This document shows positions 27,060-33,357 of a DNA stretch of 64,000 nt, in pieces. Location: the NCBI RefSeq assembly GCF_010731655.1, contig NZ_AP022619.1:2046001-2110000 (forward strand). The letters are read 5' to 3'. The notes beneath the pieces are model-generated. The model had not been told where the DNA came from. It searched no databases and was given only the letters and a program-made list of their open reading frames with translations. A program made the translations under genes and the position numbers. Positions within the stretch are counted from its first letter, which is position 1; every line of letters begins with the position of its first letter. This DNA is from Mycobacterium paraseoulense. Lineage in GTDB: Bacteria; Actinomycetota; Actinomycetes; Mycobacteriales; Mycobacteriaceae.

Positions 27060-27542
27060 TCATTGGTTAGGAATCTTGCCGAGCGCCTTCAGCTTGCCGT
27101 CAGGGCCGATCTCGAACTTCACCGTGCCGATACCGGTGGGGCAGCACGGCTGGTCGTTGCCCTTCAACCATCGGTACTGCACCGCGATGGCGTCGTCGGA
27201 GGGCGGCAACACGGTTATGTACGGCTTGGGATCAGGGCTCGGTGTGCCCAGCGGCTTGTCGTGATCGAAGAACAGCAACTGCTGGCCGGTGGATTCGCTG
27301 GCGATGGTCGGGATGATCTGCACCCAGTACAACCGGCACTTCTTGGCATGCCCGCGAGCGATTTCCACCCACGTGGTACCCGGCACGGTGATGGGCACCG
27401 ACGCGATCGCACGCTGCACGGTGGCGGGTCTCGGCCCGTCGGACTCCTTGCACTTGTCGGGTGAAACCGGCGGCGCGCCGTCCTGCTTCCAGCCGCAACC
27501 GGAGGCCAGCAGGATCAGCAGGATCACCATCAGCTGACGCAC
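27060..27542 (-). CDS. lppP: LppP/LprE-family lipoprotein
   Basis: A protein of 160 residues from a GTG at 27542. The signal MRQLMVILLILLASGCG has a lipobox with cysteine at position 16; starting at the internal ATG would leave the signal too short. The mature domain contains two further cysteine pairs (SPDKCKESD, KKCRLYWVQ, QPCCPTG), likely disulfides, and the family block GTVKFEIGPDG near the end. It corresponds to Rv2330c. The function is unknown. It sits between narK and the nitrate reductase gene, and is divergent from the latter across a 279-nt gap. Confidence 0.85.
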   Translation of the reverse strand: MRQLMVILLILLASGCGWKQDGAPPVSPDKCKESDGPRPATVQRAIASVPITVPGTTWVEIARGHAKKCRLYWVQIIPTIASESTGQQLLFFDHDKPLGTPSPDPKPYITVLPPSDDAIAVQYRWLKGNDQPCCPTGIGTVKFEIGPDGKLKALGKIPNQ

Positions 27543-27730
27543 CCGGTGAGCTTAGCGAAGGCTGTGAATGTCCCGTTTGTTTGGTCGGAGACGCCGTTCT
27601 GAAGGGAAAGCCCCCGGCCGCCCAGGTAGCCTGATGCGGAGTCGGCCGGTCGACGATGACCCGTGCTGACCTGGGGGTTTACCGCATTTCCGAGAGTTCA
27701 CGGACGCGCTTCGTCCCTTGAGAGGAAGCC

Positions 27731-27768
27731 GTAAAGCGGGGGAAACTCCCGATACCCGGTGCCGAAAC
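27731..27768 (+). promoter_or_regulatory. Probable GlnR box upstream of the nitrate reductase
   Basis: Half-sites GTAAA (27731-27735), GAAAC (27742-27746) and GAAAC (27764-27768) fall on the 11-bp grid of the actinobacterial GlnR box (gTnAC-n6-GAAAC-n6-gTnAC-n6-GAAAC); only the third half-site (27753-27757) is poor. The two perfect GAAAC elements are exactly 22 bp apart. The box ends 53 nt before the start codon. GlnR activates nitrate assimilation genes under nitrogen limitation. The remainder of the gap (27543-27730) has GC-rich inverted repeats but no feature I can name. Confidence 0.6.
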
Positions 27769-27821
27769 ATCCTCATCGCACCATTCGACGTAAGCCCGTT
27801 GCGCTCACAGGAGGGAAGTGC

Positions 27822-30800
27822 GTGGCCAGGGAGTCCATGGCGTCACACGACGATGCCGTGAACACCATGTGCGCATACTGCGGCGTCGGCTGCGGAATGG
27901 TGCTGCAGGTCACAACCGATCCCGACAGCGGCCAGCGTCACATCGCGAAGTCCGTTGGGGATAAAGAACATCCGGCTAACTTCGGCCGGTTGTGCACCAA
28001 GGGCGCCACCACTTCGGACGTGCTCAACGCGCCCGGCCGGATGGAGTCGGCGCACGTGCGCGCCGACCGCGGGGAACCCGTCGAGGCCCTCGATATGGAT
28101 AGCGCGATCACTCAGTGCGCGAACCGGTTACGGGCGATCATCAACGCGCATGGCCCGGATTCCTTTGCCATGTATGTGTCGGGCCAGATGTCCATCGAGG
28201 CGCAGTATCTGGCGAACAAATTGACCAAAGGCTTCATCGGCACCAACCAGATCGAGTCGAACTCACGGCTGTGCATGGCGAGCGCCGGTTCCGGCTACAA
28301 GCTCTCCCTGGGCGCCGACGGGCCGCCCGGCTCGTACCAAGACTTCGAACACGCCGACGTCTTCTTCGTCATCGGCGCCAACATGGCCGACTGCCATCCC
28401 ATCCTGTTCTTACGGATGATGGACCGCGTCAAGGCCGGGGCCAAACTGATCGTCGTCGATCCGCGCCGCACCGCGACCGCGGAGAAGGCCGACCTGTTCC
28501 TCCAGGTCGCCCCCGGTTCCGATCTGGCACTCCTCAACGGGCTGCTGCACCTGATCGTCGAGAACGGACACACGGACCCCGATTTCATCGCCGAGTTCAC
28601 CGAGGGGTGGGAGGTGATGCCCAGCTTCCTGGAGCAGTACGCCCCCGACACGGTCAGCGAGATCACCGGGATCCCCGAAGACGACATCCGCACGGCGGCG
28701 CGGATGATCGGCGAGGCCGAGAATTTCGTGAGCTGCTGGACCATGGGCCTCAACCAGAGCACCCACGGCACCTGGAACACGAACGCGGTCTGCAACCTGC
28801 ATCTGGCCACCGGCGCTATCTGCAAGACGGGCAGCGGCCCCTTCTCGCTGACGGGCCAGCCCAACGCCATGGGCGGCCGCGAAATGGGTTACATGGGACC
28901 GGGATTGCCCGGCCAGCGCTCCGTCCTGTCCGCGGACGACCGCGCCTTCGCCGAAGACCAGTGGGGCATTCCCCGTGGGACGCTGCGCACAGAGGTCGGT
29001 ACCGGCACGATCGACATGTTCTCCCGGATGGCCGACGGCGAAATCAAAGCGTGCTGGATCGTATGCACCAATCCCGTTGCCTCCGTGGCCAACCGGAGAA
29101 CGGTGCTGGCCGGCCTGGAGCGCGCCGAATTGGTCATCACCCAGGACACGTTCCTCCAAACGGAGACCAACGAATACGCCGACGTGCTGCTGCCGGCGGC
29201 CCTGTGGTCGGAGGCGGAGGGGGTGATGGTCAATTCCGAGCGCAACATGACGCTGTTCCAGCCGGCCGTCGCCGCCCCGGGTGACGCGATGCCCGACTGG
29301 CAGATCATTGCCCGGATCGCCTGCGAAATGGGATATGCGGAGGCGTTCAGCTACAACTCCGCCGAGGAGGTCTTCGACGAGATCAAGCGATTCTCGAACC
29401 CGAAGACCGGCTACGACCTGCGCGGGGTCAGCTACCAGCGGCTGCGTCGGGGCCCGCTGCAGTGGCCGTGCGCGCCGGGCAACCCGGGCGACCGCAACCC
29501 CATTCGCTACCTCAACGACGGGGTGAGTCAGGCCCGGCGGGTCCGCGAGGACGGCAGCGCACCCCGGCTGGCCTTCCCCACCGAGAACGGTCGTGCGGTG
29601 TTCTTCGCCCGCCCGCACCTGCCGCCCGAGGAAATGCCGGACGACGACTATCCTTTCCTGTTGAACACCGGCCGCCTGCCACACCAGTGGCACACGATGA
29701 CCAAGACTGGCAAGGTCGCCAAGCTCAACAAGCTCAATCCCGGGCCGTTCGTCGAGATCCATCCCGGGGATGCCGCAAGGCTGGGGATCACCGACGGGGA
29801 CGCGATAGAAATCGCTTCCCGGCGCGGTCGCGCCGTGCTGCCCGCCTCTGTCAGCGACCGGGTGCGCCCCGGCAACTGCTTCGCCCCGTTCCACTGGAAC
29901 GACGTGTTCGGCGAATACCTGGCGATCAACGCGGTCACCAGCGATGCGGTGGACCCGATCTCGAACCAACCGGAATTCAAGGCGTGCGCCGTCACGTTGG
30001 CGAAAGTCGCCGTCTCCGCGGCAGATCCGACCGCCTGCCCCACGCCGGCGGTGGACACCGACACCCCAGAATCCGCGCCCACGGAGGTATCCGAAATCAG
30101 CGTGTCACAGGTTGATGCCCTGGCCGAATTGCTCGGTGTGGCAACGAAACCCGTGCCGGAATTCGACGAGCTCGGCCGCTCCTACCTGGCCGGCATGTTG
30201 ACCGCGCTTCGCTCGGAAGCCGGTCGACGCACGACCGGTGTGCCGACGCTGCCCCAAAGCGCTCCCTTCGATTCCGGCACCCGGCTATGGGTGGACGGTC
30301 TGCTCGCGGGCCTGTTCTCGCGCAATGACGTTGCCCGACGCACACCGGCGCCGGCGCTCGACAAGACCGCGGTCGAGCCACGCGGAGCCAATCCCGCCCA
30401 ACGGGCACCCGTCGTGGTGCTGTGGGCGTCACAGACCGGGACCGCCGAAGAGCTCACCTCCGAGATTGCCGCGCGGCTGGGCGACGCCCGGTTGCCGGTC
30501 GCGGTGCACGCCATGGACGACTTCCCGGTGGCCGAGCTGGCGACGACGCGGGAATTGCTGCTGATCACCAGCACGACCGGCGACGGTGAGCCGCCGGACA
30601 ACGGAGCCGGCTTCTGGCGGGCGCTGACGACAGACGGCGCAGCGGAACTCACCAACACCCGCTATGCCGTGCTCGCCCTCGGCGACTCGAACTACGACGA
30701 TTTCTGCGGTCACGGGCGCAAGCTCGACCAGCGTCTCGCGGAGCTCGGAGCGACCCGCATCGTCGACCGGGTCGACTGTGAACCCGATTATGAAGACGGC

Positions 30801-32057
30801 GTTGCCAAGTGGCTGGGCGGTGTCATCCGGGCGCTGTCCCGCACGCCCGCGCCGGTGGGCCGCGACGGCGGTGCGCCGGCGTCGGCCACCCCCTCGATCG
30901 CCGTGCCGGCCCGGCCGGCCAACGGGTCGGGGGCGGTCGGGTACACCAAGAAGCATCCGCTGATCACCGACATGGTCCGCAACACCGTGTTGAGCCGGCC
31001 GAAATCGACAAAAGACGTGCGGCATCTGGTTTTCAGCCTGCCGGAAGAGACCTTGAGCTACGAGGCCGGCGACGCGCTCGGGGTGTGGCCCCGCAACAGC
31101 GACCAACTGGTCGACGAATGGCTGTCGGTCACCGGACTGGACGGACAGACCCCGGTCGAGGTCGGCGAGCACGGCCTGATGTCGCTGCGCTCAGCGCTCA
31201 CCGAGCGGATCGAGATCGCCCACATCAGCCGGGACCTGGTGCGGTTCGTGCAGGAGCGCACCGGCGACCCGACACTCGCCGAGCTGCTGAAGCCGGAAAA
31301 CAAACGCGCACTGTCGGATTGGACATGGGGGCGGCAGTCCATCGACCTGCTTGCGCAGCTGCCGGTCTGGGCCTCCGCCCATGAGTGGCTGCGGGTCCTC
31401 AAACGCCTTCAGCCGCGGTTGTACTCGATCTCGTCGAGCCCCAAGCAGCACCCCGGGGAAGTTCATCTGACGGTGTCGCCGGTGCGCTACAACTTCCACG
31501 GCGTCCCGCGCCGCGGGGTGTGTTCGACATATCTCGCGGACCGCTCCCCCGGCGATCGGGTCGCCGTCTATCTGCAGCAGTCGAGCAACTTCCGCCCGCC
31601 CGGCGATCCGGACACCCCGATGATCATGGTCGGTCCGGGCACCGGGATCGCGCCGTTCCGCGGCTTCCTGCAGGAGCGCCGCGCGCTCGGCCACACCGGG
31701 CCCAACTGGCTGTTCTTCGGCGAGCAGCACGCCGCCACCGACTACTACTACCGCAACGAGCTCGAGCAGATGCGGGACGACGGGTTCCTCACCGAGCTGG
31801 ACCTCGCGTTCTCCCGGGACCAGAGCGAGAAGGTGTACGTGCAGCACCTGATGCGTCAGCGCGGCGCCCAGCTGTGGCGCTGGCTGCAGGACGGGGCGCA
31901 ACTCTACGTGTGCGGCACCGCCGACCCCATGGCCAAGGACGTCGACCGCGCGCTCTGCGAGATCGCGGCCGAGCACGGCAGCCTCGATCCGGATGCGGCC
32001 AAGGAGTACGTCCGGTCGTTGAGCGCCGACAAGCGCTACCACCGCGACGTCTACTAG
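27822..32057 (+). CDS. nasN: Single-chain assimilatory nitrate reductase with fused diflavin reductase (NasN type)
   Basis: A protein of 1411 residues from the GTG at 27822, preceded by AGGAGG 7 nt upstream; an ATG at 27837 is an alternative. Residues 17-58 hold a 4Fe-4S site (C17, C20, C24, C58). The molybdopterin oxidoreductase domain follows, with the molybdenum-ligand cysteine in SRLCMAS near residue 150 and a C-terminal dinucleotide-binding domain to about 740. A linker of about 120 residues leads to an FMN flavodoxin domain ([11 protein letters not shown], about 865-1015). A CysJ-like FAD domain ([10 protein letters not shown]) comes next, and an NADPH domain ([13 protein letters not shown] near 1270) that ends in RYHRDVY. 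It reduces nitrate to nitrite with NADPH in one polypeptide, as in M. smegmatis NasN. Confidence 0.92.
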
Positions 32058-32079
32058 GCCTTCGGGGTCCCCCCGACTC

Positions 32080-32117
32080 GTAATACGACGGAAACGTCGC
32101 GCGCGTATTGCCGAAAC
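32080..32117 (+). promoter_or_regulatory. Second GlnR-like box, upstream of the nasN remnant
   Basis: GTAAT (32080-32084), GAAAC (32091-32095) and GAAAC (32113-32117) sit on the same 11-bp grid as the box upstream of nasN, again with a weak third half-site. The sequence after it (GAAACAACCTC then CTGCACCATTC) also matches the segment after the nasN box, and the distance to the start codon (50 nt) is nearly the same. This is therefore a duplicated promoter region rather than a chance match. Confidence 0.55.
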
Positions 32118-32167
32118 AACCTCGCTGCACCATTCAGTCATTGGTGGCGCCGAGGAGGGACGTACGC

Positions 32168-32443
32168 GTGGCTCTGGATTTCGAGGGGCCCCTCGAGGAC
32201 ACCGTGCAGGCCGTCTGCCCGTTGCGGTGCCGGCTGCGGCGTGGGGCCGACGGCGACGACGGTGACCAGGTCGACTGGGCCGGGTTGCCGATCAATTTGG
32301 ACTTGGCGTTCTCGCCGCAGCAGCGCGACAAGGTGTACAGGCAGCACCTGATGCGCAAACGCGGCACGCAGCTTCGGGGGCATCTTCGGGCCGGCTCTCA
32401 CCTGTGCGTTTGCGAAGAGACCGCCGACGACGGACAGCCCTAG
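32168..32443 (+). pseudogene. Internally deleted nasN copy (91-codon remnant ORF)
   Basis: The ORF starts at GTG 32168 behind GAGGAGGGA, as nasN does, and encodes 91 residues. Residues about 9-23 (LEDTVQAVCPLRCRL) align with nas[18 protein letters not shown], but the Fe-S cysteine spacing is lost. After a short bridge, [19 protein letters not shown] and [11 protein letters not shown] align with the C-terminal NADPH domain of nasN ([19 protein letters not shown] and [11 protein letters not shown]). More than 1,200 codons between are missing, and the normal C-terminus is replaced by EETADDGQP. The reading frame stays open, so a small protein could still be made, but no catalytic domain survives. 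Confidence 0.75.
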
Positions 32444-32553
32444 CCGCAGCGCTCTGCACGCCCTCGCAGCGCGATTTCCCGTCGGCGATTAAGTTCAGCG
32501 CGAGCGTAAAACATTACCTGCGAAAGCAATTCCGGCCGGGATACGCTTGCTGC

Positions 32554-33357
32554 GTGGCCGATAATCCGTCGTCATACTTGGTGCTGGCGTCGCAACGCAG
32601 TGGCAGCACGCTGCTGGTCGAGTCGCTGCGCGCGACCGGCGTCGCCGGCGAGCCGCAGGAGTTCTTCCAATACCTGCCGGCCACCAGTCAGGCGCCACAG
32701 CCGCGCGAGTGGTTCGCCGGCGTGGAGGACGAATCCATCCTGCGCCTGCTCGACCCGCTCGATGCGGGAACTCCGGACCTCGCGCCCGCCGAGATCTGGC
32801 GCGACTACATCCGCACGGTCGGGAGGACGCCGAACGGAATATGGGGCGGCAAGCTGATGTGGAATCAGACGCCGCTGTTGTTGAAGCGCGCGAAAAACCT
32901 ACCGAATCGCAGCGGCGACGGCCTGCGGGCCGCGATCACCGACGTAGTGGGCGAGGAGCCGCTCTTCATCTATGTGCATCGGCCCGACGTGATTTCACAG
33001 GCAGTGTCGTTCTGGCGGGCGGTGCAGACCCGGGTGTGGCGAGGGCGGCCCGACCCCGTCCGCGACGCGCGGGCCACCTACCACGCCGGCGCGATCGCGC
33101 ACGTCGTCACCATGCTGCGCGCCCAGAATGAGGGCTGGCGGCATTGGTTCGCCGACGAAGACGTCGCACCCATGGAGATTCCGTATCCGGTGTTGTGGCG
33201 CAACCTTACTCAAGTGGTGGCCGCCATCCTGGAGGCATTGGGGCTCGACCCGCGACTGGCGCCCGAGCCGATGCTGGAACGCCAGGCCGACCAGCGCTCC
33301 GACGAATGGGTCGACCGGTACCGTGCCGATGCCGAGAAGTACGGCCTGCCAACCTGA
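32554..33357 (+). CDS. stf0: Trehalose 2-sulfotransferase Stf0
   Basis: A protein of 267 residues from the GTG at 32554, exactly the length I recall for M. tuberculosis Stf0 (Rv0295c); in-frame upstream extension lacks support. The PAPS 5'-phosphosulfate-binding loop is [15 protein letters not shown] near residues 9-23, and the Stf0 motifs [18 protein letters not shown] and [17 protein letters not shown] follow. It transfers sulfate from PAPS to trehalose, giving trehalose-2-sulfate, the core of sulfolipids in M. tuberculosis. In species without sulfolipid-1 the product may have another fate. Here it sits between the nitrate reductase region and the cysteine genes, away from the sulfatase. 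Confidence 0.9.

Follow-up and report, generated by a model that had tools for sequence, protein, structure and literature searches.

What is the 91-codon open reading frame (ORF) that lies directly behind a nitrate reductase gene in this DNA, and is it a working gene? The window, i.e. the whole stretch of 64,000 nucleotides analysed here, spans positions 2046001-2110000 of a 6.09 Mb genome assembled as one contig. The larger gene encodes a product of 1,411 residues and is a fused NADPH-dependent assimilatory nitrate reductase; the name nasN is given from its domain layout and from published descriptions in excerpts of two papers (PMC11162112, PMC7816997). The small ORF begins with GTG at 32168, 110 nt after nasN, and ends with a stop codon at 32441-32443. 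The original prediction described this ORF, its GAGGAGGG site and its GTG start, all of which are present in the sequence, and derived it from a tandem duplicate of nasN with a large in-frame deletion, leaving either a protein that interferes with the parent NADPH domain or decaying DNA. The features of the locus are as follows.

27731..27768, + strand: GlnR-type a-b-a-b double box 5' of nasN (pattern match)
27822..32057, + strand: nasN, the parent gene (ORF; Pfam molybdopterin, flavodoxin, FAD and NAD domains)
27869..27961, + strand: nasN DNA (codons 16-47) corresponding to a stretch that, read in the +2 frame, is similar to CPLxC...DQVDWA, the N-terminal half of the small protein (six-frame hmmsearch; coordinates transferred from locus L113)
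31781..31958, + strand: segment near the nasN 3' end, within the NADPH domain, to which the C-terminal half of the small gene is homologous (BLASTN)
32080..32117, + strand: GlnR-type double box of the small gene (pattern match)
32152..32159, + strand: ribosome-binding site GAGGAGGG (sequence; the consensus built from 72 upstream regions has a purine-rich site)
32168..32443, + strand: small chimeric gene, 91 amino acids, of a conserved family derived from nasN (ORF, family searches, purifying selection)
32216..32230, + strand: CPLRC, the Cys motif of the N-terminal half (C17, C21), derived from the other frame (alignments)
32267..32365, + strand: conserved core of 33 residues (omega about 0.05; invariant columns in two family alignments)
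32405..32413, + strand: CVC, the C-terminal Cys motif (C80, C82), invariant in a 121-row alignment of the top-scoring relatives

A BLASTN comparison of 32058-32560 with 27500-32057 gives two main blocks in conserved order. Block 1 (32079-32260) matches the region upstream of nasN and its 5' end (65% over 190 columns, E 3e-13), and block 2 (32281-32457) matches the nasN 3' end (69% over 182 columns, E 6e-21). A profile built on the DNA upstream and at the 5' end of the small-gene family matches the 5' regions of 63 of 63 nasN genes, with E values from 8e-29 to 5.5e-5. Descent from nasN is thus marked by homology of the upstream region, the 5' end and the 3' end in the same order, as had been predicted, and chance similarity is ruled out by the two BLASTN blocks together with the profile matches in all 63 genes. 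At the protein level the C-terminal piece is significantly similar to NasN by BLASTP (E 1e-11, 57% over 49), and the N-terminal piece gives no significant BLASTP match to NasN (E 0.86).

In the best alignments of the cysteine region the DNA bases align without gaps while the codon phase differs from that of nasN. The frame was examined by hmmsearch, in which a 121-row protein profile that starts at the first Cys and ends at WAG was compared with the six translations of each of 63 nasN genes. In 34 of these genes the best-scoring place is the +2 frame at the nasN 5' end, an E value of 0.01 is reached in 16 genes solely at this place and nowhere else in any gene, and the top 12 matches overall are of this kind (E 4e-8 to 5e-3). 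The best of them, in the nasN of L113 (E 4e-8), extends for 31 residues without a gap and includes the position of the later near-invariant Trp. In 28 of the 63 genes another place ranks first, with 13.6 bits or less, and one gene gives no row; the window's own nasN has no row at the +2-frame 5' place with this profile. An earlier test with an N-terminal alignment derived from the loci was weak (64 nasN genes at E<=0.01: three matches in frame 0, none in frame 1 and one in frame 2), and the alignment displayed for frame 0 lay over the VARE start. A noisy pairwise count places the largest block at a phase difference of 2 in 43 of 57 comparisons; 22 of the 57 exceed 20 shuffles, and 19 of these 22 have a difference of 2.

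Given the +2-frame matches at the nasN 5' end, the best explanation of CPLxC...DQVDWA is that nasN codons about 16-47 are read out of frame here and then joined to codon about 1321 and those that follow in the normal frame, and the altered cysteine spacing would follow from the change of reading frame. The missing stretch, as estimated from the alignments, would correspond to nasN codons 48-1320, about 3,820 nt or about 1,270 codons. The duplication of nasN with its promoter and the later loss of more than 1,200 codons therefore stand, on the homology of both ends, the DNA profile and the single clade described below, and the simple in-frame deletion does not, as the N-terminal half reads nasN DNA in the +2 frame. 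The claimed resemblance to the NasN N-terminus holds for homologous DNA but not codon for codon from the first Cys on. When compared by eye, long-tailed relatives such as P0044 hint at a second deletion of 45 nt close to the C-terminus, located at TGCG repeats behind YVC; the tail of the window gene is ambiguous in this respect.

The 91-residue query finds some match in 57 of 100 relatives, nasN itself included, and a separate small-gene place in 19 genomes, its own among them. A 19-row profile run against 396 genomes of the genus gives some match in 324, and by hand count at least 94 of the 396 have a small-gene row among the matches listed; five of these 94 counted carriers have no second match and lack nasN. 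Going by their species names, the carriers are presumably slow growers. A protein profile search yields 650 related proteins, and the source names among the best 120 of these are `hypothetical' or `uncharacterized' protein. No Pfam match was found for the window protein or for the 19 of 19 family members scanned. In NCBIfam the significant matches, for four members, are to CysJ-type reductases and lie far below cut-off, and no family model of its own was found in either database.

A named genome collection contributed 76 loci, of which 72 are mycobacterial (one labelled uncultured Mycobacteriaceae) and four are reductase genes of other bacteria. In 71 of the 72, nasN lies upstream on the same strand; the exception, L118, is a 6.7 kb contig. 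The gap from nasN to the called start is 29-194 nt in 70 of the 71 loci, lengths that depend on start codons chosen by script for likeness to a ribosome site (the calls in L056, L064, L085, L116 and L118 are too short). Locus L082 has a gap of 2,441 nt, unlike the other 70. The distribution expected of an independent family, i.e. one conserved at full length away from nasN, is found in part: the family is conserved and five of 94 carriers lack nasN, but the neighbouring nasN in 71 of 72 loci and the clear nasN origin do not fit it.

On a tree of the homologous 29-codon segment, 79 small genes form one clade with support 0.99, outside which lie 80 reductase segments (78 mycobacterial nasN, the window's included, and two non-mycobacterial); L118, L064 and, for lack of a pattern match, L123 and L125 were left out, and the non-mycobacterial L124 and L126 were kept. 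The distances between small proteins correlate with those between their NasN neighbours (Mantel r 0.61 over 66 genomes; the maximum of 999 permutations is 0.14). The correlated distances and the single clade are as expected under vertical descent after a single birth, and the sequences support a single origin of the family. As to spread by plasmid or virus, one plasmid record matched (NZ_CP083743.1:100313-100456, from M. ulcerans); the match covers 54% of the query, and the gene concerned carries the annotation bifunctional nitrate reductase/sulfite reductase flavoprotein. In viral contigs, none of the 70 stretches that matched a pattern encoded a relative.

Selection was estimated with a pairwise codon model (kappa fixed at 2) on 30 disjoint nearest-neighbour pairs picked greedily from 81 sequences at nucleotide distances of 0.03-0.27, which are not guaranteed to be sister pairs. 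L133 and L137, copies of L101 and L107, were dropped before this and before the distance-correlation, Cys-motif and substitution counts. Omega is below 1 in 30 of 30 pairs, with a median of 0.16 and a summed LR of 607, and 27 pairs are individually significant (LR above 3.84). By region, omega is 0.4 in the N-terminal part, about 0.05 in the core and 0.16 in the C-terminal tail. Substitutions at codon positions 1, 2 and 3 number 230, 231 and 526 overall and 62, 32 and 174 in the core, and do not show the neutral pattern expected of a pseudogene. A pseudogene is ruled out for the family by the overall and regional omega values and the codon-position counts; the dN/dS check between family members thus speaks for purifying selection and removes the suggestion of decaying DNA. 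Judged from these patterns, the small gene almost certainly encodes a real protein under purifying selection.

The constraints on the core have changed relative to the parent NADPH segment. All 76 reductase sequences compared (72 from mycobacterial nasN and four others) have Arg1332 and Asp1333 (NasN numbering), both of which vary in the small family, where the position of Arg1332 is Arg, Pro or Gln in 34, 23 and 21 of 81 members, respectively. Ser1331, Arg1332, Lys1337 and Tyr1339 are taken here to correspond to NADPH 2'-phosphate contacts of cytochrome P450 reductase. Newly near-invariant in the small family are W37 and A38 (79 of 81, the other two being gaps), P41 (78 of 81) and N43 (79 of 81), and Ser49 and Gln59 are retained in 81 of 81. 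Over the homologous segment the small family diverges faster than nasN, with median distances of 0.30 and 0.16, respectively, in 71 genomes.

The pattern GTAA-N7-GAAAC-N17-GAAAC occurs exactly twice in the window when both strands are searched, at 27731 and 32080, i.e. before nasN and before the small ORF, where a GlnR-like box had been predicted. The shorter GAAAC-N17-GAAAC precedes 66 of the 72 small genes, six lacking its exact form, and 45 of the 64 nasN genes, and the GTAA form is also present in 54 of the 72 small-gene upstream regions. Genome-wide, the bare GAAAC-N17-GAAAC is not enriched (six occurrences against five for the reversed control), so that the box is informative only in combination with position and conservation. 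Its spacing agrees with the GlnR a-b-a-b site given in an excerpt of a published study as gTnAc-n6-GaAAc-n6-GtnAC-n6-GAAAc (PMC10704036), and the a1 site of the window box ends in T, not C. The small-gene upstream region carries the double site of the gTnAc-n6-GaAAc type used to define the GlnR regulon and hence a putative GlnR site. Excerpts of three papers place nasN under GlnR control in M. smegmatis (PMC11162112, PMC7816997, PMC10704036). Because its promoter carries a GlnR-type double box, we infer that the small gene would be made under nitrogen limitation together with nasN; the small family is probably part of the nitrogen-starvation response.

Five genomes (G029, G156, G266, G396 and G179) keep the small gene, and no NasN orthologue was found in them. 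Their best NasN matches, the small gene aside, are distant oxidoreductases with at most 406 bits and at most 37% identity; the same search gave 1,328-3,282 bits in four genomes with nasN. The absence is firm only in G029 and G396, which are single-contig genomes, G156, G266 and G179 being drafts. The small-gene double box is retained in all five of these loci. In G029 two reverse-strand ORFs, the transporter-like gene found ahead of nasN in the window and a smaller one, lead straight into the box and the small gene. G156 and G266 have similar upstream flanks and, since these are alike, nasN was probably lost before the two split. Selection is still detectable in this pair (L128 and L129; omega 0.17, LR 16.4). 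Residue R53 is changed to Cys in the nasN-less members L128-L130, and constraint may be easing in this lineage. Survival without NasN makes it less likely that the protein serves solely as a NasN decoy, and the five genomes that keep ORF and box, together with the unconserved Arg1332, speak against the predicted interference with the parent NADPH domain as the sole function. The nitrite reductase gene nirB scores above the family cut-off in all five nasN-less genomes and in three others tested (eight of eight, carriers with nasN included), and so shows no specific link to the small gene.

Among 63 loci in which the nasN start can be seen, three (L104, L117 and L107) have a shortened nasN frame, as do L132, L134 and L135. 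The shortened C-terminal nasN frames that stand beside an open small ORF measure 414 codons in L104 (M. lepraemurium), 389 in L117 (M. ahvazicum), 263 in L132, 474 in L134 and 1088 in L135. At L107:5176-5857 and L137:5719-6400, which are the same locus, nasN codons 2-135 adjoin codons 1317-1411 in different frames; L107 comes from a metagenome-assembled genome and L137 from G364, and the adjoining small-gene member lacks both Cys motifs. Here nasN either underwent an internal deletion of its own, the second such event, or was misassembled.

Among 191 distinct sequences, 160 contain both CxxxC and CxC, 24 contain CxC without a strict CxxxC, seven contain neither and none contains CxxxC alone. 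These are related members and not independent events, and the 120 proteins included, the best of 650, favour complete motifs; L064 and L118 (no WAG in the called ORF) and L145-L177 were left out of the count. In 19 of the 24 the first motif reads C-P/S-x-H, the His standing one residue ahead of the lost Cys position (L116 being read in a longer frame), and His occupies the same position in 16 of the 160. The other five comprise three with CX4C, one shortened by start choice and one without the first Cys. The CPx[C/H] and CxC pattern suggests metal ligands. A triplex-like group (L117, L119-L122 and L132) accounts for six of the seven sequences without either motif, L107 being the seventh. Since this group keeps the core, the metal site would not be essential to every member. 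Both motifs are likewise absent in 11 of 11 of L145-L155, whose species partly overlap the L117-L132 triplex-like set; L172 and L175 retain CPxxC, but CARGNDC replaces their CxC, and L174 has CPQC. Neither of two AlphaFold2 models, whose mean pLDDT values of 55 and 57 are low, shows a metal site; they contain only a low-confidence hairpin at residues about 33-43 and a helix, likewise of low confidence, at about 49-74.

The history and action that would best accommodate these results are as follows. A tandem duplicate of nasN, promoter included, would have lost about 1,270 internal codons once, in the ancestor of the carrier mycobacteria, leaving a junction at which the +2 frame of the nasN 5' end (CPLxC...DQVDW) is fused to a 24-residue segment of the NADPH domain in its normal frame. 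The near-invariant core (WAGLPxNLD and QRDKVYxQH) would dock on a protein partner in nitrate or nitrite assimilation, and the CPx[C/H] and CxC pairs could together coordinate a single metal ion or cluster, either to stabilise the protein or to sense redox or metal state. Survival of the small gene after the loss of NasN favours as partner a component used in common (NirBD, or else one of the pathway's regulators or transporters) over NasN alone, although any such partner is a guess. That the gene product is a microprotein of nitrogen limitation whose core docks on a partner, with probable metal binding through CPx[C/H]...CxC, is proposed tentatively, at somewhat short of an even chance. The fuller account, in which the deletion and frame change turned DNA for Fe-S cysteines into a metal-binding or interface peptide fused to a piece of the NADPH domain, to give what is now a GlnR-controlled regulator of nitrate or nitrite assimilation that outlives its parent, is possible but more doubtful.

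Other readings have to be weighed against this one. A truncated paralogue could act on its parent alone, binding NasN at its FNR or Fe-S region or dimer interface and modulating it or helping to assemble it. Such a role is consistent with nasN upstream in 71 of 72 loci, the parallel promoters, the origin of the C-terminal half from the NADPH domain and the correlated distances (no permutation in 999 being as high), but is rendered unlikely by the ORF and box kept in five genomes without a NasN orthologue, with selection continuing in one pair, by small ORFs that stay open beside the shortened nasN of L104, L117, L107, L132, L134 and L135, and by the loss of conservation at Arg1332, a presumed NADPH contact. 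It is rather unlikely that the protein serves general stress or redox (thiol or metal) functions, with an inherited nitrogen promoter and a target outside nitrogen metabolism; the CPx[C/H]...CxC motif, the persistence without nasN and a core conserved like a protein interface would all suit such a protein, but the GlnR-type box kept in 66 of 72 loci and in every nasN-less one points to nitrogen status.

Two further explanations deny the protein a role. A conserved unit acting mainly as DNA or RNA (promoter or regulatory RNA), the protein being incidental, could account for the well conserved double box and its persistence without nasN, but the dominance of third-position substitutions, in the core as well as overall, is unlike a non-coding element and makes this very improbable. 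That the ORF is the remnant of a decaying duplicate, open by chance, is hardly credible: the internal deletion, the frame change, the faster N-terminal divergence (omega 0.4) and the three of 30 pairs that are not singly significant are what decay would leave, but the core omega of 0.05, the values below 1 in all pairs and the 650 related proteins in many species contradict it for the family, although a single strain could still hold a dead copy.

With NasN, the MSMEG_4206-type NADPH assimilatory nitrate reductase, the small gene shares the promoter layout, the 5' DNA and the NADPH-domain segment, but it lacks about 1,270 codons and any detected parent Pfam domain, has its N-terminal half in another frame and does not conserve Arg1332. 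It is thus not a NasN or CPR-type diflavin reductase, which has complete molybdopterin, flavodoxin, FAD and NAD domains. A segment of 44-51 residues matches the NADPH domain of CysJ or CPR-type NADPH reductases (TIGR01931; PDB 1ddg), with E 6.8e-7 for the window protein and 2.3e-9 for the family profile, which aligns to the NADPH domain of the sulfite reductase flavoprotein; the small protein scores 28 bits against a cut-off of 668 and represents only one piece of the fold. The cyanobacterial NirP1, as described in an excerpt of its report, has 81 residues (homologues 76-86) with invariant Trp and Cys, interacts with nitrite reductase and is under NtcA, its promoter carrying a nitrogen-regulator binding site (PMC10907346). 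The small size, the Trp and Cys residues and the promoter site are alike, an analogy drawn from the description with no sequence relationship claimed, but NirP1 is controlled by NtcA and in that excerpt is not described as derived from an enzyme gene (PMC10907346). NirP1 shows that such a mode of action exists and might serve as a model for that of the small gene.

No publication on this small gene was found among the open-licence PMC papers listed. It represents a new bacterial protein assembled from fragments of a large enzyme, usually with the parent adjoining for comparison. Half of it would be an out-of-frame peptide brought under selection, including the Trp found in 79 of 81 members (the other two being gaps) and, if the nitrogen link is true, it would add an undescribed layer of small proteins to nitrate assimilation in these mycobacteria. 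Next downstream in the window, at 32404-33357 (+), is an ORF that by eye is sulfotransferase-like. It is matched in 12 of 76 related loci, some flanks being cut short, and the gene order 3' of the small gene therefore varies.
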